Of a stretch of DNA of 64,000 nucleotides, positions 5,857 through 38,942 are shown piece after piece. The notes beneath the pieces were generated by a model, which was given only the letters and a program-made list of their open reading frames with translations, made no database searches and was not told where the DNA came from. The translations under genes and the position numbers were made by a program. Numbering within the stretch: position 1 is the first letter of the stretch; each line of letters begins with the position of its first letter. The DNA is from a virus. The DNA lies in the IMG/VR virus record IMGVR_UViG_3300036828_000565, positions 1-64,000 of that record. The stretch is one strand, 5' to 3'.

Positions 5857-7650
5857 ATGAAAAAACTGCTCATTTTGCTCCTGGGCATTGTTTCGGTTAG
5901 CTCTTTTGCCCAAGGAAGGAACCCTCAATGGCCCGTTTATGTAAATCCAGGAGCCCAGGGACAGATACCGCAGTATTTTCCCTCTCAGGCAGGCATCCCG
6001 GTCTTAGGGCCATCAAATTTGACTGATAATGGTAACGTTTTGTTGTATAAAGGCAGTCCGATTGGCTCTCAGGGCGGAGGATCCATCAATCTTACTGTTT
6101 TAGGAACTGCCGGAGCCGCTACTTTGAATGGTAGCTTACTAAATATACCGGTTTATCAAGGTCAGGTCACACTTACAACTGTGGGAAGCAACTGTGGGCC
6201 CGCTACCTTCATATTTAACACATTAAATATACCTCCGTGTGCACCTCCGAGTAATTCCATTACTCTTACTGTCCTTGGAACTTCTGGAGCCGCCACTTTG
6301 AGTGCGGGTACGTTAAACATACCAATTTATCAAGGCCAGCTCACATTTACGACCACAGGAAGTAACTGCGGATTAGCTACCTTTGTTGGTAATACTTTAA
6401 ATATACCTCCGTGTACACCAGCAAGTGGTATGGTGTATCCAACGGGTGACGGGATACCTCTTGTAGTTGGCGGGGCTAGTTGGGGAACAACTATAGCACC
6501 AGGAACTGGTATAGTTACGTTCTTACAGACACCTACATCAGCCAATCTTGCTGCAGCAGTAACAGGTGAAACTGGCACTGGTGCATTAGTCTTTGCAACC
6601 ACTCCAACGTTAGTAACTCCGGTTATTGGTGTAGCGACTGGAACTAGTTTGACATTAAGTGGGTTGATGCAATCACTTAGTGCGAAAATTACCGGGGTGC
6701 CGTCGGCGGCGTCACTAGCAACTGATGCTTCAGGTAATGTTATAGCAGGAAGCTCGTTCACTAACCCAATGACTACCTTAGGTGACATGTTCTATGGTGG
6801 AGCAGCTGGCGTAGCTACTAGAATACCTGGACCGATCACTGGTACAGTTCCTTATAACTATTGTTCAACACCTAGTGGAGGGGTAGCAACCGCTCCTACA
6901 TGGTGTCTAGCTGGTATAAGTGGTAGAACAGTTAGTGGGACAACCGATTCAATTACAGCCGCCGACCGTGGGGGAAGCATACTATATACTTCAACATCAG
7001 CTGTTGCTGTAACGTTACCATCAGCCGCGTCGCTAGGCAATAATTTTGATTTTGTAACACAGGCACAGAATGGTTCAGGTGTAATCACTATCACAACAAG
7101 TGGTGGTACATTCTTAAATAGTACGGGAGGTACGAGTACTACTCAGACTTTCTCAAATGGTCAAAGTTGCGCGATATCATCTCCAGATAATCTTAATTAT
7201 ATCTCAAGATGTACACAACAAGCTGTAACTGCTGGAATATCAATTCCATTAATAGCAAATGCAGCTGCAGCTGGAGTAGCAGCTAGTACAACTGGTTATA
7301 TCGCGGCAACAAATTATGCTCCTAACTTTACAGGAAGTACTACTAATCGACAAATGGCGTTTCCACATAGTGGAACAATTTCAAATATGACGGTATGTTT
7401 GATTTCTAATCAAACAGCAACTGGTTCAATGACTATAGCTTTTCAGACGGGAACATATGGATCAGCATTAACCAATACTCCATTACAAGTTGTACTTGCG
7501 GCAAGTGCGGCATTAGGATGCTATTCAGATACAACAGACTCATTTACTTATACTGCGGGTCAAGGCATTGACATCCAATTGGTAAACGCTGGAACAGCTA
7601 CTAGTGGATTTGTGGGAACTATATATGCGGAATTTACTAACATACATTAA
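5857..7650 (+). CDS. Fibre-like protein with Sec signal peptide, 597 aa
   Basis: Residues 1-19 form a textbook signal peptide (MKKLLILLLGIVSVSSFAQ), odd for a virion protein. Residues 20-70 are nearly identical to the start of the protein at 10261. A 58-residue unit is then repeated twice (76-191), followed by a long Thr/Ser/Gly-rich beta stretch typical of phage fibres and a C-terminal beta-sandwich-like domain with conserved cysteines. It is followed with overlap by the beta-helix protein at 7625. It may be a receptor-binding or polysaccharide-binding protein; whether it is in the virion or exported by the infected cell is unknown. Confidence 0.7.
   Translation: MKKLLILLLGIVSVSSFAQGRNPQWPVYVNPGAQGQIPQYFPSQAGIPVLGPSNLTDNGNVLLYKGSPIGSQGGGSINLTVLGTAGAATLNGSLLNIPVYQGQVTLTTVGSNCGPATFIFNTLNIPPCAPPSNSITLTVLGTSGAATLSAGTLNIPIYQGQLTFTTTGSNCGLATFVGNTLNIPPCTPASGMVYPTGDGIPLVVGGASWGTTIAPGTGIVTFLQTPTSANLAAAVTGETGTGALVFATTPTLVTPVIGVATGTSLTLSGLMQSLSAKITGVPSAASLATDASGNVIAGSSFTNPMTTLGDMFYGGAAGVATRIPGPITGTVPYNYCSTPSGGVATAPTWCLAGISGRTVSGTTDSITAADRGGSILYTSTSAVAVTLPSAASLGNNFDFVTQAQNGSGVITITTSGGTFLNSTGGTSTTQTFSNGQSCAISSPDNLNYISRCTQQAVTAGISIPLIANAAAAGVAASTTGYIAATNYAPNFTGSTTNRQMAFPHSGTISNMTVCLISNQTATGSMTIAFQTGTYGSALTNTPLQVVLAASAALGCYSDTTDSFTYTAGQGIDIQLVNAGTATSGFVGTIYAEFTNIH
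6082..6429 (+). repeat. Tandem 58-codon repeat in the fibre gene
   Basis: Two 174-base units starting at 6082 and 6256 encode near-identical segments (SINLTVLGTAGAATL and SITLTVLGTSGAATL, each ending in NTLNIPPC). Base-level differences are mostly conservative, so this is an in-frame duplication under selection for the protein. Confidence 0.85.
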
Positions 7651-10243
7651 AGTTGGTTTAGTGGCCGCGGTATTAAGTGTAGTGGCACACGCTACGGCTT
7701 ATACTATAACAGCTCCGCATTACACGATGCATGTGGGAGATTTGGTCCCGCCGTGCATTATTCAGATTTCAAATGGCACAAGTATCGTTTCTGAGTCTAA
7801 TACATTGTTCTCTGGTGCAGCTAGCTGTTCTATTGGAGCAACTTCAGTATCTCCGGTTGGTAACTATACGATTACAGTATCACAAGGAACCTTAGCTTCT
7901 TTGACGGGTGGAGATACTATCTCTACAGTGAACAGTCAACTAACTGTCATTGCACCAGATGGGGAAGGCGCTTCTTTGACTGTTGCGGGTACGTTACCTC
8001 CTGGATTCTTTGGAGGTATCAGGTTTCCTGCTATCAACATGACAAGTAATGGAATAGCTAATGTAGTAGCAGGAGGTACGGATAATGCGGCAGCGTTTTT
8101 AGAGTTAACTGCATTTGGAAGAGGCACTCAACTTGCTACAGTTAGCGTAGCGACTAGTGCAGGTACCTCAACTATTACTCAAACCTCAGGTACACAGTTT
8201 ACTGGACTGGCTGCTGGGACACCTATCAAGGTAGATGGATTGATCAATAGCATAGCCTCAGTAACTGACGCTACGCACTTAGTAACGACTAGCACGGTTG
8301 AGGGTGGAGTGACTCTGACTGGTGTTCAACTAGAGTTTCCACCTTGGGTAGTGAATGTATCGGGAACAGCTGTTACTGCGGTGTCGGGACCAACGTTTAC
8401 TGGGCTTACTGGACAGATGTTAATTGACGGTACAGTCTATACTATCTCTTCAGTGACGGATGCTACTGATATAGTGCTGACTACTTCAGCTCCTACTCTT
8501 ACCAACAAGAACATGTATAAAGGACCGGCCTCTTGTTGTAGTGCTGGTAGTGGTGGGTCAACTCCACAGAATTTCTATCTACCAGCCGGGGTGTATTCAA
8601 CTAGTCAACCCTTGCAATTGTACTTAAATTATTGGCAGATCATTGGTGATGGTCCACAGTCTTCAGTTATCAAGCTCCTGCCTAATTCGCCTATGTTTAA
8701 TACTGGGACAGCCACTCAATGGATTAGTCCTCAATCAGTAGGCGGTAACCAGAATTTTCATCAATTTGTTTACAACCTAGGTTTTGAGATTGGTGCAGGC
8801 AATCCCAATGCTATTCCTTTAACAACAGAGATGAATAATGTCGCGGCGATGCGAAATGTGCAGATATGGGCTGACGATTCAGTTTGTCCATACGCGATAA
8901 GTGAGCGACGGGGGTTCCCTGGGCCGATGTTGTTGAAGAATATTGCTATATATGGATGCAACAACGCTATCTCTAGTAACCAGAATGAGTACACGACGGT
9001 GATTGAAGGTCTTACTTTAGAAGGTCAGACTGGCGTAGTAATGGATCCTACCTCACATAACTATGCTTTACGTCATGTGCTGTCAGATAATCCTGCTATC
9101 TTTTTCAATGGCGCTACTGGATCTTATGGAGTAGTTTCCTTATTGGATTCAGAACTATTGAATGGTAATAGTTCTACTAATGCTATTGGCATATTATCTG
9201 GTGGTAGTGGATATTTCAAGAATGTTCATGTTACTGGCTATCAACATTCGATAGTGGACTCTAGTACTGGTACGACTGTAACCGTAGATGGAAACGTTAC
9301 GCAATCATGGAGTGGGCCGGGAGCATCATTGTTTGGCGGTACTCCAGACTCATTGCACTTGCCGGAGAATGAGACACCAATACCTACAGATCCTTCACCA
9401 AGCACCTGGACGGCCCTCGATTCTACTGTAGCTAACTGGCCGACTGAGATTTCCAGTTCTGCTTCAACTACAGTCTATGCTCCACCTGGTGGTTACAACA
9501 CCGCTAATGGTAGTACAGTTACAATCAACGTTCCAGATACCGTAAATCACATCATCTTCTATCAATCTAAGAGAACTGATAATAACGCCTACACTATTCA
9601 GTTAAATGTTGCAGGAACATCAGCTACTCCAATTGTTATAGATGGTTGTATCTATAATCAATGTAATGTGGTACATACCGGATCAAGAACATTAGTACTT
9701 TTAGATAGTGTGCTCAATCAATATTCTTCAGCGCCAGGTGCTGGTAATCTATATGGTGAAGATACTATCTTGACAGGTACAGCAGCTACTGTGCCATTAG
9801 TATTCTACTCTTCTCAACATATATGGTTTAGACACATGAATCTGGAGCACCATACTTTTGTTAAACTGGATTGTGAAGGATGTACGATCTGGGTATTAGG
9901 ATATAAGACGGAAGAACCATTTCCTAACATTGTGTTAAATGTGGCCGCTAAAGGTGAGTTCTTTACAACGTTTATGTATTCAAATGTGCTTCCATCGCAA
10001 CCGAGTCAGATACTGTTAAATAATTCTAGTGTGTTTTTATCGAGTGTACTTGATAAAGTAGATACAGCAGGACGAGGTAATACTGATTGGGTAACAGATA
10101 CACAAAATAGTATAGTACAAAATTTACCTACCGGAAATATAAACAATACCATTAATTTGCCTATGTATTATTCATATGGAGCCAATGTAGTTCCAACTCC
10201 TACGGGTAATAATCCAAGGGGTAGAGTATTGTCATTTTACTAA
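7625..10243 (+). CDS. Beta-helix tailspike or depolymerase with signal peptide, 872 aa
   Basis: The ATG at 7625 gives a good signal peptide (MRNLLTYIKVGLVAAVLSVV to about residue 25); the longer frame from 7604 is unlikely. Two related beta domains follow (about residues 165-300, with TSAGTSTITQ and a second GTAVTAVSG copy). The region from about 310 on (YLPAGVYSTSQPL, WQIIGDGPQSSVIKL) is a right-handed beta-helix of the pectate-lyase type found in phage depolymerases. It overlaps the previous gene by 26 bases. Probable role: binding or cutting a surface polysaccharide. No catalytic residues could be assigned. Confidence 0.72.
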   Translation: MRNLLTYIKVGLVAAVLSVVAHATAYTITAPHYTMHVGDLVPPCIIQISNGTSIVSESNTLFSGAASCSIGATSVSPVGNYTITVSQGTLASLTGGDTISTVNSQLTVIAPDGEGASLTVAGTLPPGFFGGIRFPAINMTSNGIANVVAGGTDNAAAFLELTAFGRGTQLATVSVATSAGTSTITQTSGTQFTGLAAGTPIKVDGLINSIASVTDATHLVTTSTVEGGVTLTGVQLEFPPWVVNVSGTAVTAVSGPTFTGLTGQMLIDGTVYTISSVTDATDIVLTTSAPTLTNKNMYKGPASCCSAGSGGSTPQNFYLPAGVYSTSQPLQLYLNYWQIIGDGPQSSVIKLLPNSPMFNTGTATQWISPQSVGGNQNFHQFVYNLGFEIGAGNPNAIPLTTEMNNVAAMRNVQIWADDSVCPYAISERRGFPGPMLLKNIAIYGCNNAISSNQNEYTTVIEGLTLEGQTGVVMDPTSHNYALRHVLSDNPAIFFNGATGSYGVVSLLDSELLNGNSSTNAIGILSGGSGYFKNVHVTGYQHSIVDSSTGTTVTVDGNVTQSWSGPGASLFGGTPDSLHLPENETPIPTDPSPSTWTALDSTVANWPTEISSSASTTVYAPPGGYNTANGSTVTINVPDTVNHIIFYQSKRTDNNAYTIQLNVAGTSATPIVIDGCIYNQCNVVHTGSRTLVLLDSVLNQYSSAPGAGNLYGEDTILTGTAATVPLVFYSSQHIWFRHMNLEHHTFVKLDCEGCTIWVLGYKTEEPFPNIVLNVAAKGEFFTTFMYSNVLPSQPSQILLNNSSVFLSSVLDKVDTAGRGNTDWVTDTQNSIVQNLPTGNINNTINLPMYYSYGANVVPTPTGNNPRGRVLSFY

Positions 10244-10260
10244 CCGAAAAGGAAAAATTA

Positions 10261-13191
10261 ATGAAAAAGATGCTAAAATTGCTCATTTTTTCCTTGGGTA
10301 TGACTTCGGTTGGTCTTTATGCTCAGACTAAGAATCCTCAGTGGCCTGTTTACGTGAATCCGGGATCTATGGGTCAGATTCCGCAATATTATCCCTCTCA
10401 AGCGGGCATTCCAATGTTAGGTCCATCAAATTTGACGGACAATGGGAACTTTTTGCTATATAAAGGTCAACCAATTAATGGTGGGAGTAATGGAGGTGGA
10501 GGAACACCAGCTCTTCCTTTAGGAATTCCACAGACTGATATTCTTCAGGTTCCGCCTATCCCAGCACGTACTGCAGGATGGCAAGATCTTTTGACTACAG
10601 CTGATGTACCTCATGGACATCCAAACTGGATGAGTTTCCAGCCCATTACGGTTACGCAGACACTTGTCAATACTACTTTCAATGAAGGTGCAAATGGTTC
10701 GCCTGTTGCAGGTACGCAGCCAGCAACTAACTTGCCGGGTAATAGTTGGTACATCGCAAGTGGTTCTTCGTTTGTTACCGCTCCAATTTATGTCTCTGGT
10801 GGTGGCATGACCTGGGCCGGCACCAATGGTTTACTTGAGTTTGATATAGGTAGTTACGGTGGAATAGTCAACTTTACCGGTGTACATGCAGGTCCGGGTC
10901 TCACCTTAATGGCGCTCGATGACGCTAATCAGCAGGATAAGCTCATTATCGTTATTGACACCAACATGACCATCAATAAGGTTGTGGGTGGCATCGTCAA
11001 TGTAGTTGCAACTTATCCCGTTACTATGACGGCGAGCGACAATTATCGGTTTGTGGTAAGTGGCCAGTCGTTTACTTCAACCATGAATGGCACCACGCTT
11101 GGTACTTATACTTTGCCTGCAGGGACACCGCTCACGACAAATACTCGCTGGGGTATGTTCTCCTCCGGTGGTGGTACTGCGACTATGCAGGGTTTTAGTT
11201 TTCAAGGAACTGCAACTATAACACAACCTATTCCTGCAGTCGGTACCGCCTGTATCTTGCAAGCAAACGGTAATTGTGGACCAGTTGTCGCTAACCAAGG
11301 TATCGCGCCGCGTTCTGACTCGACTATTGGACCGGTTCCTGAGATTGGCTACTCGACCAACAATGATGGTACTTCTTCAATCGCGTGGCAGGAAAATGTG
11401 GCGAATGGGCAATATGACGTCCGTCGACCGCGTTCAGGTGTCACTTGGGCGACTAACCCGATTACCGCTTGGTCGAATACAATGAATCAAGCAGCCTGTG
11501 ATTCGATTCAAACTCATCTTTTACCGCTGGTCTTTCTGCCTGCTGGTACTGCCAATGTTACTGGTCTGCAGTTACCGCCAGGTATCAGTGTTTTCGGTCA
11601 ACAAGGCGCGGCAACTGGCACTACTACTTTGCGGCAATCAAATGGTACACAAACATTGCTTGGAGTGGTCGGGAGTTACACTACCTCCTGTAATGGTGTC
11701 ACGACTACCTTTACTGGTGGTAACTCGACAGTAAAATATATCAATTTCCAAGGTGGTGGTACGGCTTCACCTAATGACATCGGTATGGATATGGAGACTA
11801 TTTCTGGTGGCGCAGCGTGGGACTCGTTCAATGGTTTTGGTGGACCGGGTGCGAAGATTCTTGGTGTCAACAACTATGGATACGACCTTTATGCGAGCTC
11901 GAACTTGGGCTGGTATATGTTCTCTGGTGCCTACAATCCTTCAAGCTTTGCTGATACCACCTATCATGCGTCGCTTGAGCTTGCTTCACAGGATGGGCAG
12001 TTTCACGACATCATTGAGTATGGTTGGAATCCCGACCAGTATGTCGCTGGTCAGGGTCTCTATAATCGTTGGTATCTTTGTGGTGTGTTGCTTGGAGGCT
12101 CTCCGAGCTTCCCCTTTACCAATAGTTTTATTCAGGTCAATCCGAATGACTTGTGTCTTGGAGGAACAGGAGTTGGTGGTTATGAGGTTACTAACAATCG
12201 TCTTGATCTGCCGTGGTTTAATAGCGTGCGTTTAGTAGCGGGGCCAGCGCCACAAAGCGCAACTGTCATGAACAACACGCTTGAAGGTTCTTGCACCTCG
12301 CAAACTTTGAATCCAACCAATTTTCCAACAAATCCAGGTGGTGTCTCAACTGATCCTACTTGTGCCGCGATCCGTGTTGAACAGACCTATCTCACCTCGA
12401 ATATTGGCCCAAATCAATATACCTCATCACCTGGCTTAGTACCAGAGTGGCCTGTATATGATGTATTTTTTGAGACCAACATTTCTGGTCAACAGCCTGG
12501 CACGGTTAACGAACCTGGCCACTCGATAGGTGGTGGAGTAGGTGGTGATCCACCGGATGGAAACCAGAATGCGGCGGTTGGAAGGAGTGTGTGGGAAGAA
12601 ACTAAAGTCGCTTTCGGTAATACTGCGCCTACGATTCCCATGAATCAGTACCGGCAAGTGCACTTGAAATCCTCAACTGCGACTACCTGGAGCCACGCGT
12701 CGGTTAGTTATCCAGACACTATTCGTTATCTTGATATTGGACCAAACGACACCGTTCTTAACACCGATAACATTATCACTTGCTATGGTACCATCCATGG
12801 CGACGCCTTTCGTATCCTCCACGCCTTTTGGTTTGATGGCACCTATCTACGGGAGTTTCCTTGTCCAGCTCAAACTCCAGCACTAGTTGCGAGTTCTGAG
12901 ATAGTGACTTTCTCCTCTACTCCGACTTTCTCAGTTGCTACTCGGGCATCAATTATTACACTTACTGCTGGTGTCTCAAGCTTTACTTTAGCAGCTGGGG
13001 CAAATGGTCAAGAAAAGACACTTACTTTTTGTCAAAATGGGACTGGTGGATTTACTGTTGTTCCGCCAGCAAATGTTCGTGGCTTCTTTACCGTGGGTAC
13101 TACTGCGAATAAGTGCAGTTCTCAACACTTCACTTATTTTGTTGGTCAAACGGCATGGCTAGCCGATTCAGCTGGAGTTATCAACGAATAA
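10261..13191 (+). CDS. Beta-helix fibre protein with signal peptide, 976 aa
   Basis: The N-terminus (signal peptide ending LYAQ, then NPQWPVYVNPG and SNLTDNGN motifs) is a paralogue of the protein at 5857. Residues about 120-330 look like a carbohydrate-binding-like sandwich, and about 400-780 like a parallel beta-helix with an LPAGT entry motif. The DNA from about 10.6 to 12.9 kb is richer in C and G than its ends, as if the central domains were acquired later and joined to a resident N-terminal module. Likely receptor-binding or depolymerase protein; substrate unknown. Confidence 0.7.
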   Translation: MKKMLKLLIFSLGMTSVGLYAQTKNPQWPVYVNPGSMGQIPQYYPSQAGIPMLGPSNLTDNGNFLLYKGQPINGGSNGGGGTPALPLGIPQTDILQVPPIPARTAGWQDLLTTADVPHGHPNWMSFQPITVTQTLVNTTFNEGANGSPVAGTQPATNLPGNSWYIASGSSFVTAPIYVSGGGMTWAGTNGLLEFDIGSYGGIVNFTGVHAGPGLTLMALDDANQQDKLIIVIDTNMTINKVVGGIVNVVATYPVTMTASDNYRFVVSGQSFTSTMNGTTLGTYTLPAGTPLTTNTRWGMFSSGGGTATMQGFSFQGTATITQPIPAVGTACILQANGNCGPVVANQGIAPRSDSTIGPVPEIGYSTNNDGTSSIAWQENVANGQYDVRRPRSGVTWATNPITAWSNTMNQAACDSIQTHLLPLVFLPAGTANVTGLQLPPGISVFGQQGAATGTTTLRQSNGTQTLLGVVGSYTTSCNGVTTTFTGGNSTVKYINFQGGGTASPNDIGMDMETISGGAAWDSFNGFGGPGAKILGVNNYGYDLYASSNLGWYMFSGAYNPSSFADTTYHASLELASQDGQFHDIIEYGWNPDQYVAGQGLYNRWYLCGVLLGGSPSFPFTNSFIQVNPNDLCLGGTGVGGYEVTNNRLDLPWFNSVRLVAGPAPQSATVMNNTLEGSCTSQTLNPTNFPTNPGGVSTDPTCAAIRVEQTYLTSNIGPNQYTSSPGLVPEWPVYDVFFETNISGQQPGTVNEPGHSIGGGVGGDPPDGNQNAAVGRSVWEETKVAFGNTAPTIPMNQYRQVHLKSSTATTWSHASVSYPDTIRYLDIGPNDTVLNTDNIITCYGTIHGDAFRILHAFWFDGTYLREFPCPAQTPALVASSEIVTFSSTPTFSVATRASIITLTAGVSSFTLAAGANGQEKTLTFCQNGTGGFTVVPPANVRGFFTVGTTANKCSSQHFTYFVGQTAWLADSAGVINE

Positions 13192-13199
13192 GGAATATC

Positions 13200-14999: not shown

Positions 15000-15064
15000 A
15001 ATAGTTATTTACAACTATTGATAGTTTGATTTATAATAAATTAATGGGTAAAAAGGAAAAACCT

Positions 15065-17725
15065 ATGAATGAGCTGGCTGAGCTATTGGAGAGCTTGGCC
15101 ACTGATGCAGGTGGACCTGGCGAGTTTAAATATGATGGTGGTCCTAAGCCTTATATTTCGAAAGAAACTGGAGAAGTTACTCCAAAATCTAAAGAACGAG
15201 TTGAAGGATTACAGCAACAAGAACCTGTTAGGCTTCCTGAGATTTCTATTCCTTTATTATCTCCTGAGCAGCAACAAAAAGTAGATACTCTATCTGCTAA
15301 GTACTCAGTTGTTTTGAATGGTCTTCAGGTTCCTAGTAAACCTTCTTCATTAAAAGAGAGTTTTAATAAAGCACTAGATTTTATGGGGCTTCTTCCTTCT
15401 AAAAAAGCTTCTGTTTCATCTCGTAGAAAGTTTCTTACTCAATCTATGGCTGTTGTAGCTTCTACGACTGCTGGAGGTGTCTTAGGTAAGGGTGGTTTAA
15501 AGGCTCTTTCTGAGATGAGTGGGTTGTCTGCCGAGACTCTAGCTGCACCTTCGGCTGCACTAGTTGAGAAATCTTTTTCAACTATAGCTGTTAAATTAGT
15601 GAATAGTTATCTCGATAAGTTTAAAGAGTCGTTTGGTGAAGGCTCGATTGATGAATTGAGGGAAATTAGAGTTGATGAAGCTGCAGAATCTGTTAATGCT
15701 AAAGATTTAATGTATTCTGTAAAACAAGTAGCTGAAGACATGGAAGAGAGTTTAAGAATCTCAGTCACTGAAGATAGTGCTATATATCCAACTTTCTTAA
15801 GAGAGTTTAAAGATAGTGCTGAATCTTTAAAAGACATTCTAAAATTGGCTGGAGTTGATGAACAAAGTATAAGTAGATTTGTAGCTAATCCACAGGAACT
15901 TTCAAATTTGGCGGCAAGATATAGAAGTTCATTTGTTTCTCCAGAGAATGCCCCTTCTTGGAAACCAAAAGGTTTTCAACCGCCCCCAGAACAAATGGAC
16001 ATTTTAACTGAATTAGAAGCTGAATTGCCTCCTCCTGAAGGATTTTTTGCTGAAGGCGAAGCTTGGGAGTCATCTGAGGAATTTGAGGCTCATAAGGTTA
16101 GACAAGCTGAATTTCAAGAAGAATGGAATAAGAAGTATCCACCAAGTGAAGAAGCTGAAGCCGCTGAACCTGAAACTGCTGAGGCTAAAGTAGAAACTGC
16201 TGAACAAGCTGAAGCTGCAGAAACATCAGAGCTTAGTGAATTGACTGCTGAAGGTGGTTCAGAATCTTCTATTGCTTCAGCAACTACCAGACTCGCGGCT
16301 ACATTTAATAGAATAGATAAGTTTCTGGCTGAAGAAAATAAAGAAGTATCACATGGAAGTAGAAACCTAGGAATTGATTCAGATATCGCTCTTGACTATA
16401 CCTTCATTCCTGAAGAACATCCTCGTCAGAAGGATCCTGATTGGGGAGGTAAGACACAAGAACTTGGGAATCTTCCTGCTCCTAAAGGTTGGCAAGAGGG
16501 TGGAAAATCTGGTGGTTTAGCTGCGACAGTTTATAATGCTCGTACACAGGAAGAAGCTGAAAGATTAGGCCAGATGTATCCTGAGTTTGATAAACTTGTT
16601 CAACATTATGTTGAAGTTCAAGATCAACTTACTAAGAGTTATGTTGCTGAAGGTAAAGGAGTAGTAAATCCTGATTTTGGCTATCCTGAGTCTACTAAAT
16701 TTAAGGAAGAATTTGTTGATCCAATAGAAAAGAGAATCGCTGAAGAAGAAAAGAAAATTCACTCTGAACTACAACTTTTAGTTGGCAAATGGGGTTCTGA
16801 ACAGAAAGTTAGATTCTACGCTACTCCTGAAGGTAAAGCTCAAAAAGAAGAAGAAGAGCGTCAGATTGAGTATTGGAATAAAGAGAATGAGATACGCTGG
16901 GCAAAAGAAAAAACTGAAAAAGCTGAAAGAAAAGCTAAACTCAGCAAGTTATCTAAGACCGGAAAAGCTAAATTCCAAGATAAAGAAGTTGATGATTATT
17001 ATAAAGAATATGGACTTAATTCAAAACAAAATGAAGCTTTAAAAGAGGATGAAGGAAAGTTTAAACGTACTAGGATGTTGAGTGAGCATGAATTACAGAC
17101 TATAGATGAGTATGGAGCTAGTGCTGACTTCATTCAAGGTTATTTGGCTTTTAAGAGTCTTTCAGGAAGAGGAAGACCTGGTGGACAAGCTGCTCAGTTT
17201 GGTGGAGATGAGAAGTATGCTCAGACAATAGTTAAAGAAATGAGTAAAGCTTGTAATTCATTTGAAGTAAATCATGACCTTGATGTATATAGAGGAATTA
17301 GAACATTTAATGATGAGAATGGTAAATTGAATGCTCAATCAAAGGCTTATTATGATGCATTCTTAAATGCTGAACCTGGTGACACTATTCATAATCCTGC
17401 TTTTTCTTCTACTACAACTGATATGGGTCGAGCTGTTGATTTTTCAGAAATGCATTTAGATATTCAACATGCAGAAAAAGAAACTCAAGAAAATACTGAA
17501 GGAATGATTCTTCATATTGGATTGAAAAAAGGTCAAAAAGCTTTAGAGATGAATAGAGCTGGTCATTTTGGTATGCTAGACGGATTAGAAACTAGAGAAG
17601 TTGTTCTTGATAAAGACTCCAGATTTAAAGTTGAGTCTGTTGATAAAGAAAAAAGAATCGTAAAACTATCTTTACTCGATAAAGGTACTGCAACAGATTC
17701 TGTAATTTCTTTAGTTTTTAACTAA
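15065..17725 (+). CDS. Virion-associated ADP-ribosyltransferase-like protein, 886 aa
   Basis: The C-terminal region looks like an R-S-E ADP-ribosyltransferase: R743 in VYRGIR, S781-S782-T783 in FSSTTTD, and E845 in TREVVL preceding a SRFKVESV strand. The position two before E845 is Thr rather than the usual Glu or Gln. Residues 118-124 (SSRRKFL) followed by a hydrophobic stretch resemble a Tat motif but lie internally. Residues 330-430 are Glu/Ala-rich coiled coil. Its place directly after the portal suggests a minor head protein injected with DNA, as T4 Alt is, modifying host proteins. ATG at 15065 follows AAAAAGGAAAAACC. Confidence 0.7.
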   Translation: MNELAELLESLATDAGGPGEFKYDGGPKPYISKETGEVTPKSKERVEGLQQQEPVRLPEISIPLLSPEQQQKVDTLSAKYSVVLNGLQVPSKPSSLKESFNKALDFMGLLPSKKASVSSRRKFLTQSMAVVASTTAGGVLGKGGLKALSEMSGLSAETLAAPSAALVEKSFSTIAVKLVNSYLDKFKESFGEGSIDELREIRVDEAAESVNAKDLMYSVKQVAEDMEESLRISVTEDSAIYPTFLREFKDSAESLKDILKLAGVDEQSISRFVANPQELSNLAARYRSSFVSPENAPSWKPKGFQPPPEQMDILTELEAELPPPEGFFAEGEAWESSEEFEAHKVRQAEFQEEWNKKYPPSEEAEAAEPETAEAKVETAEQAEAAETSELSELTAEGGSESSIASATTRLAATFNRIDKFLAEENKEVSHGSRNLGIDSDIALDYTFIPEEHPRQKDPDWGGKTQELGNLPAPKGWQEGGKSGGLAATVYNARTQEEAERLGQMYPEFDKLVQHYVEVQDQLTKSYVAEGKGVVNPDFGYPESTKFKEEFVDPIEKRIAEEEKKIHSELQLLVGKWGSEQKVRFYATPEGKAQKEEEERQIEYWNKENEIRWAKEKTEKAERKAKLSKLSKTGKAKFQDKEVDDYYKEYGLNSKQNEALKEDEGKFKRTRMLSEHELQTIDEYGASADFIQGYLAFKSLSGRGRPGGQAAQFGGDEKYAQTIVKEMSKACNSFEVNHDLDVYRGIRTFNDENGKLNAQSKAYYDAFLNAEPGDTIHNPAFSSTTTDMGRAVDFSEMHLDIQHAEKETQENTEGMILHIGLKKGQKALEMNRAGHFGMLDGLETREVVLDKDSRFKVESVDKEKRIVKLSLLDKGTATDSVISLVFN

Positions 17726-17751
17726 ATAAAAATTATAAAATAGGAGGAAAG

Positions 17752-18183
17752 ATGTTCCTCCCTCCCGTAGCACAGCCTACGCAGGATGTGGCGCGTGTCA
17801 AATTCTATTATGGTCTATCAATCTATATAGAAAATCCTGAAGGATCAATTAGAACAGGAAAGAATTGGGCCAGTAAGGCTCCAGCTCACTATGGTTACAT
17901 CATGGGCTTCTTTGGTGCGGACGGTGATGAGATGGATTGTTACATTGGACCAGATTTGAAAACTGGAAAAGTTTATGTGGTCGATCAAAATAAGATAAAT
18001 TCTGAAGATTTTGATGAGCATAAAGCTATGATAGGTTATCATTCTCAACAAGAGGCTTTAGAAGATTATTTTGATGGTCACAGTCAAGGTAAGATAATCT
18101 TTAGAGGAGTAACTCAATTAACCCCTTTAGAGTTTCATAGATGGTTAAGGTTCGGGGATCATAAGGTTCCGTTATCAGGATAG
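17752..18183 (+). CDS. Inorganic-pyrophosphatase-like (InPase) virion-module protein, 143 aa
   Basis: Strong AGGAGG start. The core (IENPEGSIRTGK, PAHYGYIMGFFGADGDEMDC, VYVVDQ, FDEHKAMIGY) matches the InPase-like domain often fused to or next to phage minor head proteins. The GADGDEMDCYIG motif carries the acidic residues expected for metal binding. Actual pyrophosphatase activity is not established for most of these proteins. Encoded between the ART-like protein and the capsid genes, so probably co-packaged or used in head morphogenesis. Confidence 0.75.
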   Translation: MFLPPVAQPTQDVARVKFYYGLSIYIENPEGSIRTGKNWASKAPAHYGYIMGFFGADGDEMDCYIGPDLKTGKVYVVDQNKINSEDFDEHKAMIGYHSQQEALEDYFDGHSQGKIIFRGVTQLTPLEFHRWLRFGDHKVPLSG

Positions 18184-18191
18184 GAGATGAA

Positions 18192-26850: not shown

Positions 26851-26859
26851 GGAGGATTG

Positions 26860-27434: not shown

Positions 27435-27436
27435 GA

Positions 27437-29898: not shown

Positions 29899-29912
29899 GT
29901 ATAGGTCTAAAT

Positions 29913-30338: not shown

Positions 30339-30358
30339 TTGTTCTCGAGTTTTAAGGT

Positions 30359-30465: not shown

Positions 30466-30468
30466 ATT

Positions 30469-31575: not shown

Positions 31576-31576
31576 G

Positions 31577-32287
31577 ATGCTTTCTATACAAGAGAGATTG
31601 GCTGTAAAAACTGAGCCTATTGAAGGAGCAATGTGGCAATGGCTCTGTATGTTACGTTGTGCTATTCCTGGAGTAGTAAAATCGTTTAATTTAGATAAAC
31701 AGACTTGTGTAGTTCAACCAGCGATTCAAGAGTTGGTGATGCTACCACCTCCGTCTACTTCTCAAACTCCTAATCCCGGTAGTGGTCAAAATATTCCAAC
31801 GTATGTACCTATCGCTCCAATAGCTGATGTTCCGATAATAATGCCTCGAGTACCAGGTTGGTCGATTACAATGCCTATAGTACCTGGTACTGAGTGTTTA
31901 TTGGTTTTTGCTGACGCTTGTATAGATGGGTGGTGGGCTAATGGTGGAGTCCAGGTTCAATATGACAGAAGAAGGCATGATCTATCTGATGCAATGGCTC
32001 TATTTGGGCCGTGGTCACAACCGCATGTACTTACTGGCTATTCATCAACATCTTTACAAATCAGATCAGATGATCAAACAGTGGTCATTGATTTGACAGC
32101 TGGAAAGATTTCGATCATTGCAGCAAATGTAGAAATTAAGAATGCTGTTGCTCCGGCTCCGAAATTTTTAGTTAATGATAACTTTTATCAATGGTTTGTA
32201 AATGTCTTTCTACCAGCGGTGAGTCATGGACCTCTAGTTCCTCCTCTTCCTGTTAATCCAGAAACTACAGTATTGAAAGGACAATAG
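31577..32287 (+). CDS. Baseplate spike (Gp138 N-terminal-like), 236 aa
   Basis: The N-terminal OB-like domain (IPGVVKSFNLDKQTCVVQPA, VPIIMPRVPGWSITMPIVPG followed by TECLLVFAD) matches the phi92 gp138 membrane-puncturing spike family. The C-terminal part (LQIRSDDQTVVIDLTAGKIS) would form the trimeric needle. It follows the hub by one base. Confidence 0.8.
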   Translation: MLSIQERLAVKTEPIEGAMWQWLCMLRCAIPGVVKSFNLDKQTCVVQPAIQELVMLPPPSTSQTPNPGSGQNIPTYVPIAPIADVPIIMPRVPGWSITMPIVPGTECLLVFADACIDGWWANGGVQVQYDRRRHDLSDAMALFGPWSQPHVLTGYSSTSLQIRSDDQTVVIDLTAGKISIIAANVEIKNAVAPAPKFLVNDNFYQWFVNVFLPAVSHGPLVPPLPVNPETTVLKGQ

Positions 32288-32289
32288 AT

Positions 32290-32688
32290 ATGGCAACCAT
32301 TACGGTTAGAGCTATTGATCCTGTTACCTTTGAACCTCAACAAGGAAATAGTCAATCTAATTTTATCTCAGATTTAGATGCTGTAGTTCAAATCATTAAT
32401 ACTCGTTTGAGATTATTTCAAGGAGAGTGGTTTCTTAATTTACTTGATGGATTACCTCTTTTTCAATCTATAGAAGGATCTTCAGGTGGAGCAAGAAACA
32501 TTCAAATAATAACTAATTTGATCTCAAATAGAATACGTCAATCTCCTCATGTTACTTTAATCTCTTCGGTAACATCAAGTTACCTTAATCGTAGTTATAA
32601 GTATTCTGCTATTGTTCAAACTGAGTTTGGACTTATTACAATAAGTAATTCTCCAGGAAGTTTAGCTACTTTAGCAACTTCAACATAA
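32290..32688 (+). CDS. Baseplate wedge protein, gp25-like, 132 aa
   Basis: VVQIINTRLRLFQGEWFLNL and DGLPLFQSIEG are characteristic of the small wedge protein coded just before baseplate J. It lacks the EPR motif of T4 gp25 proper but fits the family by position and length. Confidence 0.7.
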   Translation: MATITVRAIDPVTFEPQQGNSQSNFISDLDAVVQIINTRLRLFQGEWFLNLLDGLPLFQSIEGSSGGARNIQIITNLISNRIRQSPHVTLISSVTSSYLNRSYKYSAIVQTEFGLITISNSPGSLATLATST

Positions 32689-32698
32689 GAGGACTAAA

Positions 32699-33898
32699 AT
32701 GGCATATTTTCCACCAATGATAACCGCCGCCGGATTATCAGTGCCACTGTTCTCTGATATTCAACAGGCTTTAATAGATTCATACCGAACGAGTTATGGT
32801 AGTACCACCTATCTTGGTAATGATTCAGCTGATTATCAATGGATTACTTCCATAGCTTTGAAACTAAACGATAATATGGGTTTATGTCAGTTAGCTTATA
32901 ATTCTAGATCTCCTCTTACAGCAGTTGGTTCAGCTTTAGACTCTCTAGTTAAAATTAATGGAATTGCAAGGTTACCTTCTTCAGCTTCATCGGTTATTTT
33001 AAGTTTAACAGGTACTTCAGGAACTATAATAACTAATGGAGTTATTCAAGATATAATGGGTATCCTTTGGTCATTACCTCAAACAGTAGTAATTGGTGTA
33101 GGTGGGACATTATTAGTGTCAGCTTTATGTCAACAGAGTGGTCCTATATCAGCAAAAGCTAATACTATAACTATTCCTGTAGGTGGATTTACAGCCGGTT
33201 GGACTTCTGTTACAAATCCTAGTCCAGCTATACTTGGGCAACCAATAGAGGCTGACTCATCATTAAGAGCTAGACAATCAATTTCTGTGTCTTTACCATC
33301 AGAGACTAGATTAGCTGCTACTCAAGCCGGCCTTGAACAAGTTGCAGGAGTTACTAGAGTAAATGTTTTAGAGAATCAACTTTCAGTTACAGATTCTTTC
33401 GGCAATCAAGGTCACTCTTTGACATGTGTTGTTGAGGGTGGAGCTGATGTTGATATAGCTACAGCTATTTTTATTAATAGAGGAATTGGTTGTAATACTC
33501 AAGGAGCAACTGTTCCTACAATGACAATTATTCCAGTTACAGATCCTAACTCAGGAAATGTTACTGAAATTGGATTTGTAAGACCTACTAATATTCCAAT
33601 CTACATTCAAATTAATGTTCATAGCTTAAGCTTAGCTTTTACGGTATCTACTCAAGCAGCAATTATAGCAGCCATAGTAAATTATTTGAATGGATTAGAA
33701 ATTGGAGAATTAGTTACTCAATCTGGTTTAATGGCAGCAGCTATGTCAGTTATGCCTAATATTTTACTTCCAATGTATTCTATTAAAGCTCTGTATTTAA
33801 GTACTAGTCCTAGTCCTACTACTAGTACTGACATTCCTCTCACATTTTTCGATGTGGCTTTGGGAATAACCACTAACGTTAATTTGACGGTGGTGTAA
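32699..33898 (+). CDS. Baseplate J-like protein
   Basis: 399 aa, full length for the J/gp6 wedge family. ALDSLVKINGIARLPSSAS, PISAKANTITIPVGGFTAGW and GQPIEADSSLRARQSISVSL are the conserved core; the C-terminal half includes the usual IPVTDPNSGNVTEIGFVRP-like loop. It connects the inner baseplate to peripheral fibres. Confidence 0.88.
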   Translation: MAYFPPMITAAGLSVPLFSDIQQALIDSYRTSYGSTTYLGNDSADYQWITSIALKLNDNMGLCQLAYNSRSPLTAVGSALDSLVKINGIARLPSSASSVILSLTGTSGTIITNGVIQDIMGILWSLPQTVVIGVGGTLLVSALCQQSGPISAKANTITIPVGGFTAGWTSVTNPSPAILGQPIEADSSLRARQSISVSLPSETRLAATQAGLEQVAGVTRVNVLENQLSVTDSFGNQGHSLTCVVEGGADVDIATAIFINRGIGCNTQGATVPTMTIIPVTDPNSGNVTEIGFVRPTNIPIYIQINVHSLSLAFTVSTQAAIIAAIVNYLNGLEIGELVTQSGLMAAAMSVMPNILLPMYSIKALYLSTSPSPTTSTDIPLTFFDVALGITTNVNLTVV

Positions 33899-33899
33899 A

Positions 33900-34484
33900 G
33901 TGGGAACACAACCAACTCAATTATTGCCTACAGGATACTATAATAGTCGATTAACTTCGATGTATAGTAACGCCAATTTATTTCATGATTGGTTATTGTC
34001 TGTTCTAAATATTGCTAACGATATAAGCAATCTTTTGTCTAGTATACAGGGAGCTTTTGATCTAGATTTTGCCATAGGGGCTCAATTAGATATACTTGGC
34101 TTAAACATGGGTGTTAGTAGAATAGTTCCTTTTCAACCCAGTGGTGGAGCTAGTCCGGTATTAGATGATGATACTTATAGATTATTACTTCAAGCTACTA
34201 GAGCTAATAACAATTGGGATGGAACTATTGGAAGCCTTTATCCTATATGGAATCTATTATTCCCAGGTGGTCAAATTACTATTTTAGATAATCAAAATAT
34301 GACAGCTACTATTATTATGACAGGTAGCTTTAGTCTTATTGTTCAAGATTTGATTAATAATGGAATGATAGTTCCAAGACCTCAGGCTGTCAATTATACT
34401 TACGAGTTTGGAAGTACTCCATTCTTTGGGTTTGACCTTAACAATTCCTTTATCGCAGGTTGGGATACGGGTAAATGGAGCTAG
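33900..34484 (+). CDS. Baseplate protein DUF2612, 194 aa, GTG start
   Basis: DUF2612 follows J in this phage group. AQLDILGLNMGVSRIVPFQP, DDTYRLLLQATRANNNWDGT and GMIVPRPQAVNYTYEFGS are typical. The start is GTG at 33900, one base after the J stop. The C-terminus ends in FGFDLNN and GWDTGKW, a common adaptor for fibre attachment. Confidence 0.83.
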   Translation: MGTQPTQLLPTGYYNSRLTSMYSNANLFHDWLLSVLNIANDISNLLSSIQGAFDLDFAIGAQLDILGLNMGVSRIVPFQPSGGASPVLDDDTYRLLLQATRANNNWDGTIGSLYPIWNLLFPGGQITILDNQNMTATIIMTGSFSLIVQDLINNGMIVPRPQAVNYTYEFGSTPFFGFDLNNSFIAGWDTGKWS

Positions 34485-34490
34485 TGAGTT

Positions 34491-35597
34491 ATGGCAGGAT
34501 TAACTAACTTTTTACAGTGGAATCCTAATCAGGTAAATCAAGAAACTGATGCTCAATATCAAGCAGACTCTCAGAGAATAGGGGGTGCTCCTGTTGGCAC
34601 CCCTTTTCCTTCGAGAACAGGTAATAAAGCTCTTTACCAAGTTTCTACAGGTGTCGCTGCTCTGATGCAGATGATGGCTAATAAAGGTTTTAATGTTACT
34701 GATGTTAACTTCGGAAACTTAGCTTCAGTATTATCTGCTATTCAAACTACGGCTGACCAAAAGGCTCCTCTTGTAGTAGTTCCTTATTCTCCTACGGCTT
34801 CATTTCAGGCTAATCTAACATCAACTTTTCAGATGACTTTAAATGGGAACGCTACTAGTTGCTCTATAGGTAATTGGTCAGCTGGTCAGATAATTAGCTT
34901 TATTTTAATTCAGGGTGGTGGAGGAGGCTTTACCTTTCATATTCCAGGGGTTAATATGTGGCCTCCTGTTATTAATGGTACTCCAGGAAGTTCAACTTTA
35001 GTTCAAATTGTTGCTCGTCAAGATCTTTCACTATGGCCTGCTGCGCAATCATTTTTATGGTATAACCCCGTTATACGGGGCCTTGGTGTAGGTCAACTTG
35101 CCGCAAATGTAATCTATATTGGATGGAGTTTAGCTGGTAGATTAAAAGCAACTGTTGATGTTACAGATTTAGGTAATTTTGTTTTTGATTCTCAGCTTAA
35201 TGCTGCTACTGCTCCGTTACAGACAGGAATAAATACTAATACTGCAAATATTGCTTCTAATACTACAAATATTAGTAACAATACTTCAGCTATTAATACG
35301 ATTAATGCTGCTTTAGCTGCTTTTTCAGGATCTCTTACTACTAATGGTTATGTTGCTCTTCGAGTTAATGGTGGAGCTTCATTTTATATTCAATGGGGTA
35401 CAACAGGAGATTTTGACCCAACTATAACAGTTACATTCCCTATTGCTTTTCCGTCTACTTGTGCTGTAGTTATGGGAAATGATATATTTGCTGGAAGTTC
35501 TAGAATTGTAAGTACTGTTAGTTCTAGTAGAACTGGCGTAACTTTTCAGAAGGATGGAACAGGAAACGGAATTCACTGGATTGCTTTAGGTTATTAG
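34491..35597 (+). CDS. Tail fibre, gp53-like C-terminus, 368 aa
   Basis: Follows DUF2612 as expected for a fibre. Residues 1-90 (MAGLTNFLQWNPNQVNQETD, QYQADSQRIGGAP) form the baseplate-binding end. Residues about 245-275 are a Thr/Asn heptad-like stretch (NTNTANIASNTTNISNN). The C-terminal 75 residues (FYIQWGTTGDFDP, ITVTFPIAFPSTCAVVM, HWIALGY) match the gp53-like receptor-binding domain. No signal peptide, unlike the neighbours downstream. Confidence 0.8.
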   Translation: MAGLTNFLQWNPNQVNQETDAQYQADSQRIGGAPVGTPFPSRTGNKALYQVSTGVAALMQMMANKGFNVTDVNFGNLASVLSAIQTTADQKAPLVVVPYSPTASFQANLTSTFQMTLNGNATSCSIGNWSAGQIISFILIQGGGGGFTFHIPGVNMWPPVINGTPGSSTLVQIVARQDLSLWPAAQSFLWYNPVIRGLGVGQLAANVIYIGWSLAGRLKATVDVTDLGNFVFDSQLNAATAPLQTGINTNTANIASNTTNISNNTSAINTINAALAAFSGSLTTNGYVALRVNGGASFYIQWGTTGDFDPTITVTFPIAFPSTCAVVMGNDIFAGSSRIVSTVSSSRTGVTFQKDGTGNGIHWIALGY

Positions 35598-35605
35598 GAG
35601 ATAAT

Positions 35606-37132
35606 ATGAAAAGAGTTCTATCGTTTATTAGTATTATGCTCCTATTTGTTCTACCAATTTTTTCTCAGACTATATTAACTCCTAATATAGGTCTTCAGAT
35701 TCCAGCAGGAGGATCTACTGACTGGAATCTTCCATTAAATTATAACTTCAATCTTATAGATCAAATAATGGGTGGAACAGTCCAGATTTCTGGATTAGGT
35801 TTAGCTCTTACTCCTATATTTGGAGTTGGTTCTCCAAGTAATTCATGTTCGGCTAATAATCAAGGTCAAGAGTATTTTGATAGTACTACCTCTCCATTTC
35901 AAGGATATGTCTGTAATAATTTATCGTGGTCAACCTTTGGAGGTGGAGGAGGAGGCGGTGGTGGTGGTGCGGGTTTTCCATTAGGATTTGTATTTGGTAC
36001 AAGTTCAACAACAGCAAGAACAGCTGTTGCAAGTGATATTAGTTTCTTATTATCTAGCTTAAGTGGATGTACTACATCTGGCTATCTTTATTCTCCAGCG
36101 GGTGGTAACTGCGTTGCTGGGGGAACTGGTGGAAGTAGTGCTTTTAATACTATAACTTCTGGAGTAAATAACTCAGCTGCTATGGTTGTTGGTTCAGGCG
36201 CTACATTTACGGCTACTGGAACAGGTACAATTGTAGCTACTAGTTTACCTTATAGTGGATTGACTGGTACAGTTCCAATATGGAATCAAAATACTACTGG
36301 TGATGCAGCAACAGCTGATGCTTTGTCTGGTGTTCCTACTACTTGTTCAGCCGGCCAAGTTCCAATTGGTATCTTACCTAATGGTAATGCTACAGGTTGC
36401 TTTAATCCATCAGGTACTGCTTCAGGAACTACCGGTAATTATGGCCTTTTTGTTTCTGGATCAGCTATTGGTAATGGTCACCTTGATTATGGTATAACAA
36501 CTGCAGCAACTAATACTAGTACAGTTCCATTCCAGATAAATGATGGTTCTGGTACAGGTGGAACATTTACTAGTTATGCTGGATCTGCTCCAACTGGTTT
36601 AGCCGGTCTATCAAGACTTTATATGTCTAGTACGACTAATCAGTTCATGGTAAACATGAATAATACTGGTCAAGCTTATTTAGCATCTGTATTAACTCCT
36701 GCTGCTGCGGGCGACTGCGCTATCTTTGATACCGATGGAATTAGACTCAAAGATTCGGGGGTTGCTGGTTGTTCTTCTGGTGGGGGTGGTACGCCAGGAA
36801 CTCCATCACATACAGGTGATGCAGGAGCAGGTACAGGGGGCTCACTTGTTATAACGTTTGCGACTGGAGCTAATGATAATAGAGGTTACGTAAATTTAAC
36901 AACCGGCAATGCACCTGCAGCTAATTCAGGAATCATTACAATTACATTTGGTGGTACACATGCAACTGCACCTGGTTGTGGTGTAGCACCTTCATCAACA
37001 TTAGCACAAAATTTAAGTGGTGGAGTTTTCGTACCGGCAAGTTCTGTGACAACAACAGCATTTGTTATTACAGGTACAGCTGCGTTACCGGCTAATACTA
37101 CTGGTTATCAGTGGTTCTACTGGTGTGAGTAA
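35606..37132 (+). CDS. Fibre-like protein with Sec signal peptide, 508 aa
   Basis: MKRVLSFISIMLLFVLPIFS then Q is a clear signal peptide. The following STDWNLPLNYNFNLIDQIMG is a motif seen at the start of many phage fibre-like proteins from environmental data. A poly-Gly linker (about residues 113-121) leads into Ser/Thr/Gly-rich repeats and a C-terminal beta domain with two cysteines. It follows the gp53-like fibre by 8 bases with GGAGATAAT as ribosome site. Function uncertain. Confidence 0.65.
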   Translation: MKRVLSFISIMLLFVLPIFSQTILTPNIGLQIPAGGSTDWNLPLNYNFNLIDQIMGGTVQISGLGLALTPIFGVGSPSNSCSANNQGQEYFDSTTSPFQGYVCNNLSWSTFGGGGGGGGGGAGFPLGFVFGTSSTTARTAVASDISFLLSSLSGCTTSGYLYSPAGGNCVAGGTGGSSAFNTITSGVNNSAAMVVGSGATFTATGTGTIVATSLPYSGLTGTVPIWNQNTTGDAATADALSGVPTTCSAGQVPIGILPNGNATGCFNPSGTASGTTGNYGLFVSGSAIGNGHLDYGITTAATNTSTVPFQINDGSGTGGTFTSYAGSAPTGLAGLSRLYMSSTTNQFMVNMNNTGQAYLASVLTPAAAGDCAIFDTDGIRLKDSGVAGCSSGGGGTPGTPSHTGDAGAGTGGSLVITFATGANDNRGYVNLTTGNAPAANSGIITITFGGTHATAPGCGVAPSSTLAQNLSGGVFVPASSVTTTAFVITGTAALPANTTGYQWFYWCE

Positions 37133-37137
37133 AGCTA

Positions 37138-38289
37138 ATGAAAAAATTTCTTAAATCTTTCATTCTATTATTCTGTAGCACGGCTTTAGCCCAAGCTACG
37201 AACCCGGTATACTCACCTGGTACTAGTTCATTTACTGGAAGCGTTACTGTGGGTATATCTAATTCTACGAGTGGTTCAGTATTCTTTTGTACTACCGATG
37301 GATCAACTCCAGATATTTCTTCATCACAGATAGCCGGTAGTATTACTTTACATGCTACAACTACTTTAAAATGTATAGCGGCTGTAATTGGAATTAATCA
37401 AAAAAATGGTCAGAATCATGTACCTTCGGCTAATAATTATTGGAAGTATCCTCCTGTTTGTTATGGTACTGGCCCCTATACAACAACAGGAGCAGGTTGT
37501 GCGGCTGATGATCCGGGTGGCACAGGTATACCTTTAGATTCTACTTATAATCTTACTTCTTCTCCTTCTTTATCTGGTCAATCGATATTATTTGGAGAAA
37601 CAAGTCAACCAAATCATCAAACTAATATTTTATTTGCGCTTAAGTCTTCTTTTGGTGGTTGTGATGGTTGTACTCAATTCTTAGAGACTCATGATTATTA
37701 TTGGCCTACTAATAGTAACGCATCTGCTGATGAAGATGACATGTATAGTTTTGATGTTACAGACAATATACGTTTTATGGCAGGTGGTCAGTACTGTCAC
37801 ACGGGTTGTCCAGGTGGTACAGCTGGTTGGGATTATGGTGGAAATAGTAACGTTTCTTGGACTAATAGCGGTGTAACGGCTGGTGGTACTCGTGGAGTAT
37901 GGCATCACTTTCAAAGATACATGTACACTATAGCTAGTGAAATTACTAGCAAACCATGTTCTTCTTCAGGTGCTTGGCCTTATATCTATATTAAGTATCT
38001 AGCTATTGACGGAACAGCTTATAATAATAGTGGTCCTGGTTGGAAATTTTGTGCTAATGCTTTACCTGGTGGATGGGGAAGATTAGCTGGTTATCAAGCT
38101 CAGATTGATATTGCTTCTCATACTACTTCTGTTGGTGGTAGTCAAAATTGGGACAATGTTACTTTCTTAGCAACTTACCCTCCTTCTTCTGTAATAACAG
38201 CTACTTATACTTTAGGTGGAGCAACACCAACTCCTCAAGATTCTTTTAGTGGAAAGGGTGGTCTTTCGGGTCACGTGATTGTAAATTAA
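37138..38289 (+). CDS. Secreted protein with chitobiase C-terminal-like domain, 383 aa
   Basis: Signal peptide MKKFLKSFILLFCSTALAQA. Residues 22-95 (NPVYSPGTSSFTGSVTVGIS, VFFCTTDGSTPD, TLHATTTLKCIA) match the CHB_HEX_C-type sandwich often attached to carbohydrate-active enzymes. The rest has paired cysteines (FGGCDGCTQF, QYCHTGCPGG) and aromatic residues and could be a lectin-like fold. Unlikely to be a simple structural fibre; possibly a sugar-binding receptor protein. Confidence 0.62.
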   Translation: MKKFLKSFILLFCSTALAQATNPVYSPGTSSFTGSVTVGISNSTSGSVFFCTTDGSTPDISSSQIAGSITLHATTTLKCIAAVIGINQKNGQNHVPSANNYWKYPPVCYGTGPYTTTGAGCAADDPGGTGIPLDSTYNLTSSPSLSGQSILFGETSQPNHQTNILFALKSSFGGCDGCTQFLETHDYYWPTNSNASADEDDMYSFDVTDNIRFMAGGQYCHTGCPGGTAGWDYGGNSNVSWTNSGVTAGGTRGVWHHFQRYMYTIASEITSKPCSSSGAWPYIYIKYLAIDGTAYNNSGPGWKFCANALPGGWGRLAGYQAQIDIASHTTSVGGSQNWDNVTFLATYPPSSVITATYTLGGATPTPQDSFSGKGGLSGHVIVN

Positions 38290-38300
38290 GGAAGTTAAAG

Positions 38301-38942
38301 ATGCACAAAGGTTTGTTGTTCCTCCCTCTCTGTGCAGTATTCGTGGCGCATGCTCAGATTCATTCGATTGATTGGACTATCGGTGCCTCACATTCTCCGG
38401 TTTGTGTAAGCAGCGGTACTCAGCCCATGTTACCATGCGTTAAGAGTTATGTCATAACCGATCTAACGATCAACTCCGAGACCTGTATGGTAGCTGCGCC
38501 AACGTTAACGTGTATACAGACTGGCGTGACGTGGACTGGTACACATAAGTTTTCGGCGGTTGCTGCTGGTCTTGATACACATGGTAACGCGGCTAATTCA
38601 TCGGCTACGCCTGCGGTGAGTATCTCAATCAATGTGCTAATAGTTAACACTGTCACCGGAATGGTAGCGACGCGAACTTCTACCACGGTCACAGCTAAGT
38701 GGACAAGCGATGGCAACCCTAAGTTACCATTCTGCAATGGCGCGATATATCCGTGCGTGCACGGCATCATTGGCAAAGACCTAACAAATGGCACCCACGA
38801 AACACACGTTGCGCCAACAGCACTCAAGGTATCGTGGAAAGAGTCAAACACCAGAGGTCATCGCATCGGAGTGTCAGTTGCTGTTGCAACCACACCCACC
38901 AGTTATGTCTATAGTAAATGGGCGGTATATACGCTACAGTGA
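38301..38942 (+). CDS. Secreted Ig/fibronectin-like protein, 213 aa
   Basis: Signal peptide MHKGLLFLPLCAVFVAHAQ. The mature part is beta-rich with paired cysteines (PVCVSSGTQPMLPC, MVAAPTLTCIQTGVTW) and looks like two tandem Ig or fibronectin-type domains. Base composition is visibly richer in G and C than in the genes before it, hinting at recent acquisition. Last gene of the fibre group; intergenic element copy 2 follows. Confidence 0.58.
   Translation: MHKGLLFLPLCAVFVAHAQIHSIDWTIGASHSPVCVSSGTQPMLPCVKSYVITDLTINSETCMVAAPTLTCIQTGVTWTGTHKFSAVAAGLDTHGNAANSSATPAVSISINVLIVNTVTGMVATRTSTTVTAKWTSDGNPKLPFCNGAIYPCVHGIIGKDLTNGTHETHVAPTALKVSWKESNTRGHRIGVSVAVATTPTSYVYSKWAVYTLQ

Follow-up and report, generated by a model that had tools for sequence, protein, structure and literature searches.

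Fibre-like proteins with predicted signal peptides in a contractile-tailed soil virus suggest maturation outside the cytoplasm

The locus and its signal peptides

The stretch of DNA analysed here (the window) comprises 64,000 nucleotides, positions 1-64000 of the 71.4-kb virus record IMGVR_UViG_3300036828_000565. It carries a contractile-tail gene set that includes, by Pfam, Baseplate_J at 32699 and DUF2612 at 33900. Six ORFs had been predicted from the sequence to encode fibre-like proteins beginning with Sec signal peptides, and all six are present at the coordinates given in Table 1; the ATG start at 7625 lies within a longer ORF that opens with GTG at 7604. The first three are large genes located between the terminase and portal genes (5857-13191), outside the tail block, and the GC content of fibre genes near this region is 43-46%, versus 36-40% in most of the window. 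The contig L077 has five fibre genes at the same place, between TerL and portal, and L003 has none between TerL and the next large gene. Directly after the portal gene, an 899-aa protein with a relative in L077 is encoded at 15026-17725 (+ strand); its C-terminus appears ADP-ribosyltransferase-like by eye, and Pfam gave no match. The head gene block also contains an InPase domain (PF18823, inorganic pyrophosphatase, 6.6e-34) at 17752-18183 (+ strand).

Table 1. Signal-peptide-bearing proteins of the window and the signal-less fibre in the same cluster (the slash marks the predicted cleavage site).
Feature	Coordinates	Strand	Length (aa)	Predicted signal peptide	Cleavage site	Cys	Other features
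Fibre-like protein	5857..7650	+	597	5857-5910	MKKLLILLLGIVSVSSFA/Q (FA/Q)	10 (mature)	Post-cleavage N-module common to 10261
Tail spike homolog	7625..10243	+	872	~7625-7693	AHA/TAYT	10 (mature)	
Fibre-like protein	10261..13191	+	976	10261-10323	GLYA/Q	12 (mature)	Post-cleavage N-module common to 5857
Fibre	35606..37132	+	508	35606-35665	PIFS/Q	10 (mature)	Tail-fibre N-terminal module at ~35666-35791
Protein with CHB_HEX_C_1 domain	37138..38289	+	383	37138-37191	TALA/Q	10 (mature)	
Signal-bearing protein	38301..38942	+	213	38301-38354	AHA/Q	6 (mature)	
gp53-like tail fibre (internal contrast)	34491..35597	+		none		2	Pfam Gp53-like_C, 4e-11

Signal peptides were sought with a Sec/SPase I heuristic (n-region charge, a hydrophobic core and small residues at -3/-1 within ~35 aa) among the 88 non-overlapping window ORFs of at least 60 aa. 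The heuristic is imperfect, with misses that include L077:11151-13097 and L104:2944 and with some antisense ORFs wrongly called. All six named proteins passed with scores of 5.3-8.1, as did 60020-60532 on the other strand (6.65) and three weak matches (3.4, 3.35 and 5.17). With shuffled N-termini, 0.3 ORFs per genome would be expected to pass, and each of the six proteins, once shuffled, passed in 0-1.5% of trials. The occurrence of predicted signal peptides on the six proteins is real and beyond chance, in agreement with the original prediction. A Shine-Dalgarno-like sequence precedes all six starts, weakly at 7625 and 37138, which rules out mis-called starts. The signals were said to end mostly in AQ; a literal AQ was found in four of the six, and Gln occupies position +1 in five. 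The gp53-like fibre was likewise confirmed as having no signal peptide detectable in the scan. Two further ORFs lie on the opposite strand. The one at 60020-60532, in the other operon, encodes 170 aa with its own predicted signal peptide (SASSAQ), two mature Cys and no Pfam match. The one at 39862-40155, not called by the heuristic, encodes 97 aa that begin with a hydrophobic stretch and might be cleaved at FAQ.

Relatives in isolated phages and the N-terminal modules

When the 7625 protein was compared with annotated phages by tblastn, only Tunturi_1 and Tunturi_2, phages isolated with Tunturiibacter (Acidobacteriota) as host, matched (36-37% identity over 87%), the homolog being gp14, annotated as a tail spike/pectin lyase. 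In these two phages, signal peptides are predicted on five neighbouring proteins (gp12, 13, 14, 16 and 17), four of them with A/Q, and the other virion proteins read are without them. Tunturi 4 has signal peptides on gp111, gp113 and gp114, and Tunturi 5 on gp337, 338, 341 and 342; no fibre with a signal peptide was found in Tunturi 3. The reading covered Tunturi 5 outside positions 150001-160000 and Tunturi 1/2 up to their last 14 kb. In the case of gp111 (L099:30076-33171), the annotated start (record position 80433) omits the upstream signal peptide, and the ORF, re-started here, opens at 80076. Fibre, spike or structural proteins bearing signal peptides were thus found in three independently isolated lineages of acidobacterial phages, the podovirus Tunturi 1/2, the siphovirus Tunturi 4 and the myovirus Tunturi 5. 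Seven more IMG/VR contigs, picked through related TerL or fibre modules, also encode such proteins with predicted signal peptides (L077, L078, L079, L088, L089, L104 and L105), and L077 has five of these between TerL and portal. Scans of viral contigs with 35606, 10261 and a spike profile gave no matches. Fibres with predicted signal peptides are not peculiar to this contig.

The description of the six proteins as fibre-like holds to different degrees. It stands for 7625, as a homolog of the Tunturi tail spike, for 35606, which has a fibre N-terminal module, and for 5857, which has modules common to other fibres; for 10261, 37138 and 38301 we infer it from shared modules, position and composition. 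Pfam and PHROGs gave nothing for most of the six proteins, and for the fibre module they gave no reliable match. A PDB sequence search with the spike gave no match, and a search with the Tunturi 4/1 domain matched only its Ig-like tail. AlphaFold models built from two-sequence alignments reached pLDDT values of 28 (37138) and 37 (7625).

The module that follows the signal in 35606 has the motif TPNxGLxIPA..W..PLN.NF..ID and was also found behind signals in L088, L089, L079, Tunturi 1 gp13 and Tunturi 5 gp337/341. A tblastn search with the Tunturi 5 copy gave weak matches (E 3-8 each), mainly to Klebsiella phage tail-fibre genes; the others were to a Pelagibacter phage and, apparently by chance, to a few Streptomyces sequences. 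Where proteins of the Klebsiella and Pelagibacter phages were read, the match starts 6-7 codons past the start codon and no signal is present. Alignment of the 35606 module with Chi-like tail-fibre N-termini by hhalign gave a probability of 95-96% and E of about 1e-8 to 1e-9, which is support rather than proof, since the Chi-like sequences came from the preceding tblastn search. Independently of this, a module-only search of 120 host-family genomes returned three copies. The two in prophages have no signal and contain 3 and 0 Cys; the third has a signal (ATA/Q) and 14 Cys. Across the phylum, none of the 396 genomes searched matched the module. The simplest account would be that signal peptides were added ahead of normal fibre N-modules, along with Cys-rich distal parts. 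The N-module of 5857 and 10261 is a different one (75% over 77 aa), common to the L077 fibres. Paralogs share the same N-modules and have different C-termini.

Cleavage sites, cysteines and the probable host

Conservation was compared on the two sides of the predicted cleavage site in ten homolog pairs. In nine of them, identity over the signal peptide (17-59%) falls short of that over the 40 residues following the cleavage site (38-90%), and the hydrophobic core is retained despite this divergence; the exception, Tunturi 1 gp14 and its L104 homolog, runs in the opposite direction. Gln was read at +1 in ~29 of 36 signal-bearing proteins (~80%). A host secretome sample of 0.8 Mb from two host-genus genomes (loci L113-L152) has +1 Gln in 22 of 60 predicted signal-bearing proteins, with 2-15% Gln at positions +2 to +11, a strong bias, yet below the 59-77% quoted for Porphyromonas. 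In Tunturiibacter/Edaphobacter lichenicola, no residue is commoner than Gln at +1 after a predicted signal peptide, which represents a Q-rule-like bias outside Bacteroidota. A plant-type glutaminyl cyclase was found in one of three host genomes. The signals appear to be both genuine and cleaved.

The mature Cys counts of the window proteins are listed in Table 1. Across a hand-curated list of 35 signal-bearing proteins, the count is even in 33 (p = 2e-8 against one half and 5e-6 against a 60% baseline), versus about 57-60% of signal-less proteins. Without curation, among proteins of at least 300 aa, even counts were found in 22/23 with a signal and in 86/142 without (Fisher p = 4e-4), with median Cys densities of 1.52 and 0.77 per 100 aa, respectively. 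All these p-values are optimistic because related proteins are non-independent. The host's own signal-bearing proteins have no even-Cys excess (18/28), so the pairing is not merely a mark of export. VKOR and DSBA-family proteins are encoded in the host genomes. The paired cysteines suggest an oxidising compartment, in which disulfides could form.

The host of the virus is probably a member of the Acidobacteriota, judging from the homologs of 7625 and the matching signal style. The window is low in GC whereas the Tunturi phages are GC-rich, and the host may differ from the Tunturi hosts. Shine-Dalgarno sequences were found in 64% of window genes versus 33% in shuffles; genes of Bacteroidota are mostly without them, so their frequency in the window argues against a Bacteroidota host. 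The window TerL has homologs with 48% identity in an Acidobacteriaceae genome (G541; L171 and L172). These adjoin serine-recombinase-like and ParB-like proteins, with no evident prophage on the stretches read.

Export, attachment at lysis and comparison with known systems

In the textbook view, tail fibres are folded and assembled inside the cytoplasm. The presence of predicted signal peptides and paired cysteines on fibres and spikes, and not on the rest of the particle, suggests maturation outside this compartment. Our best explanation, which we consider evenly poised, is that receptor-binding or polysaccharide-acting tail proteins undergo Sec export, SPase I cleavage and periplasmic disulfide formation and join the tails at lysis. 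Late in infection, the host Sec translocase would export the six proteins, and SPase I would cut the signal peptides, mostly leaving an N-terminal Gln. The mature chains would fold in the periplasm with disulfide bonds, probably by a host pathway of the VKOR/DsbA type. Upon cell lysis, mature fibres would meet tails built in the cytoplasm and bind them through the N-terminal module freed by cleavage, and surplus fibres would stay free and act on exopolysaccharide. Export, cleavage and oxidative folding would account for the signal, Gln and Cys observations, and tail attachment at lysis would fit the fibre modules. P22 tailspikes bind spikeless particles in vitro, which provides a biochemical precedent for late attachment. 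Free action on exopolysaccharide would fit the domain of Tunturi 1 gp17 and Tunturi 4 gp114, which has homologs in an EPS-like locus of the host; attachment and free action may both occur, in different members. The position of three of the genes between terminase and portal counts against this explanation, as does the fact that Tunturi 3 manages without signal-bearing fibres. Further points against it are the host homologs of a Tunturi spike domain in an exopolysaccharide locus, which would suit a secreted enzyme, the lack of an even-Cys excess among the host's own signal-bearing proteins, and a host of the low-GC window that may be other than that of the Tunturi phages.

A more general form of this explanation, which we put forward tentatively, is a split assembly in which heads and tails would be built in the cytoplasm and receptor-binding proteins would be exported, cleaved, pyroglutamylated, disulfide-bonded and joined at lysis. 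It would arise by signal peptides being prepended to fibre N-modules and might be common in Acidobacteriota phages.

Alternatively, the proteins could be exported and processed and never enter the virion. Once secreted or in the periplasm, they would break down or coat exopolysaccharide or mask receptors, in spread through EPS-rich colonies or in superinfection exclusion. This is possible but rather doubtful. What the signals, the +1 Gln and the cysteines say for export applies to it equally, and the spike domain of Tunturi 1/4 is 58-61% identical to proteins from an EPS-like locus on the host chromosome, among others that of X5P2, the strain of isolation for Tunturi 1-3; the CHB_HEX_C_1 domain of 37138 and the GDSL lipase and laminin-G domains of Tunturi 5 gp342 also fit such factors. 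However, a fibre N-terminal module stands immediately behind the signal in 35606 and its relatives, the paralogs combine their common N-modules with different C-termini as virion adaptors do, several such proteins occur per phage, partly within tail gene blocks, and Tunturi 1/2 have few other receptor-binding candidates. The original prediction opposed secretion to a role as virion fibres. Export remains the favoured part of that claim, but a secreted protein may also be a virion fibre: the module behind the signal in 35606 is an ordinary tail-fibre N-terminus, which makes attachment after export no less likely than the shedding of a polysaccharide-binding protein.

The other reading offered at that point, retained N-termini, is improbable. 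The uncut hydrophobic stretch would then serve as the stem of a trimer, as a membrane anchor or as a peptide for docking to the virion. In favour of this, cytoplasmic assembly is the norm for fibres, and a short hydrophobic N-terminus could attach a protein to a baseplate. However, the conservation boundary at the cleavage site, the host-like +1 Gln of most of the proteins and the paired cysteines favour export and cleavage; the signal sequences diverge while their properties and cleavage motif are kept, and signal-less relatives start within a few residues of the would-be start of the mature chain. Very improbable is a recent capture of host secreted genes, whose signals would be leftovers without a phage role, since podo-, sipho- and myoviruses all have the signals, on proteins with phage-fibre modules and with the motif kept despite sequence divergence, although the raised GC near 5857-13191 and the one Tunturi domain with host homologs would agree with it.

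If export followed by attachment at lysis holds true, lysis would be an assembly step, phages that infect EPS-rich soil bacteria would have disulfides at their disposal, and receptor-binding proteins of unannotated phages could be recognised by their signal peptides. With hosts and phages available in culture, these predictions are directly testable.

The open-access literature yielded no paper that describes tail fibres as exported or as bearing functional signal peptides, and no proteomic data on the Tunturi phages or on this one; phage DGR target proteins are stated to be without signal peptides. Tunturi 1/2 (gp12-gp17), 4 and 5 (PMC11924767) resemble the window in having signal peptides on fibres or spikes, mostly with A/Q or G/Q, and nearly all with even Cys counts. 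They differ in being podo-, sipho- and jumbo myoviruses and in being rich in GC. The main text of that paper mentions neither signal peptides nor mass spectrometry (PMC11924767). The tail fibre gp31 of the Chi-like phages (Casjensviridae) and its relatives carry at the N-terminus a PNLGL...W...LD module that is a homolog of the one behind the signal in 35606, but no signal peptide, and the member from Klebsiella phage Salado is without Cys. The chromosomal WYIRPDGG proteins of Edaphobacter/Tunturiibacter, encoded in an EPS-like locus (L101-L103), are 58-61% identical to the large domain of Tunturi 4 gp114, which is common to Tunturi 1 gp17; these are host genes, and the domain was not found among the six window proteins. 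The Q-rule proteins of Porphyromonas gingivalis phages (PMC10367356, PMC5837995), the closest published case found, like those of the window, are phage-encoded Sec/SPase I proteins with a host-matching +1 Gln; the Bacteroidetes Q-rule paper does not mention Acidobacteria (PMC5837995). The P. gingivalis phage proteins are of unknown function and belong to Bacteroidota, whereas those of the window are fibre-like and linked to Acidobacteriota.
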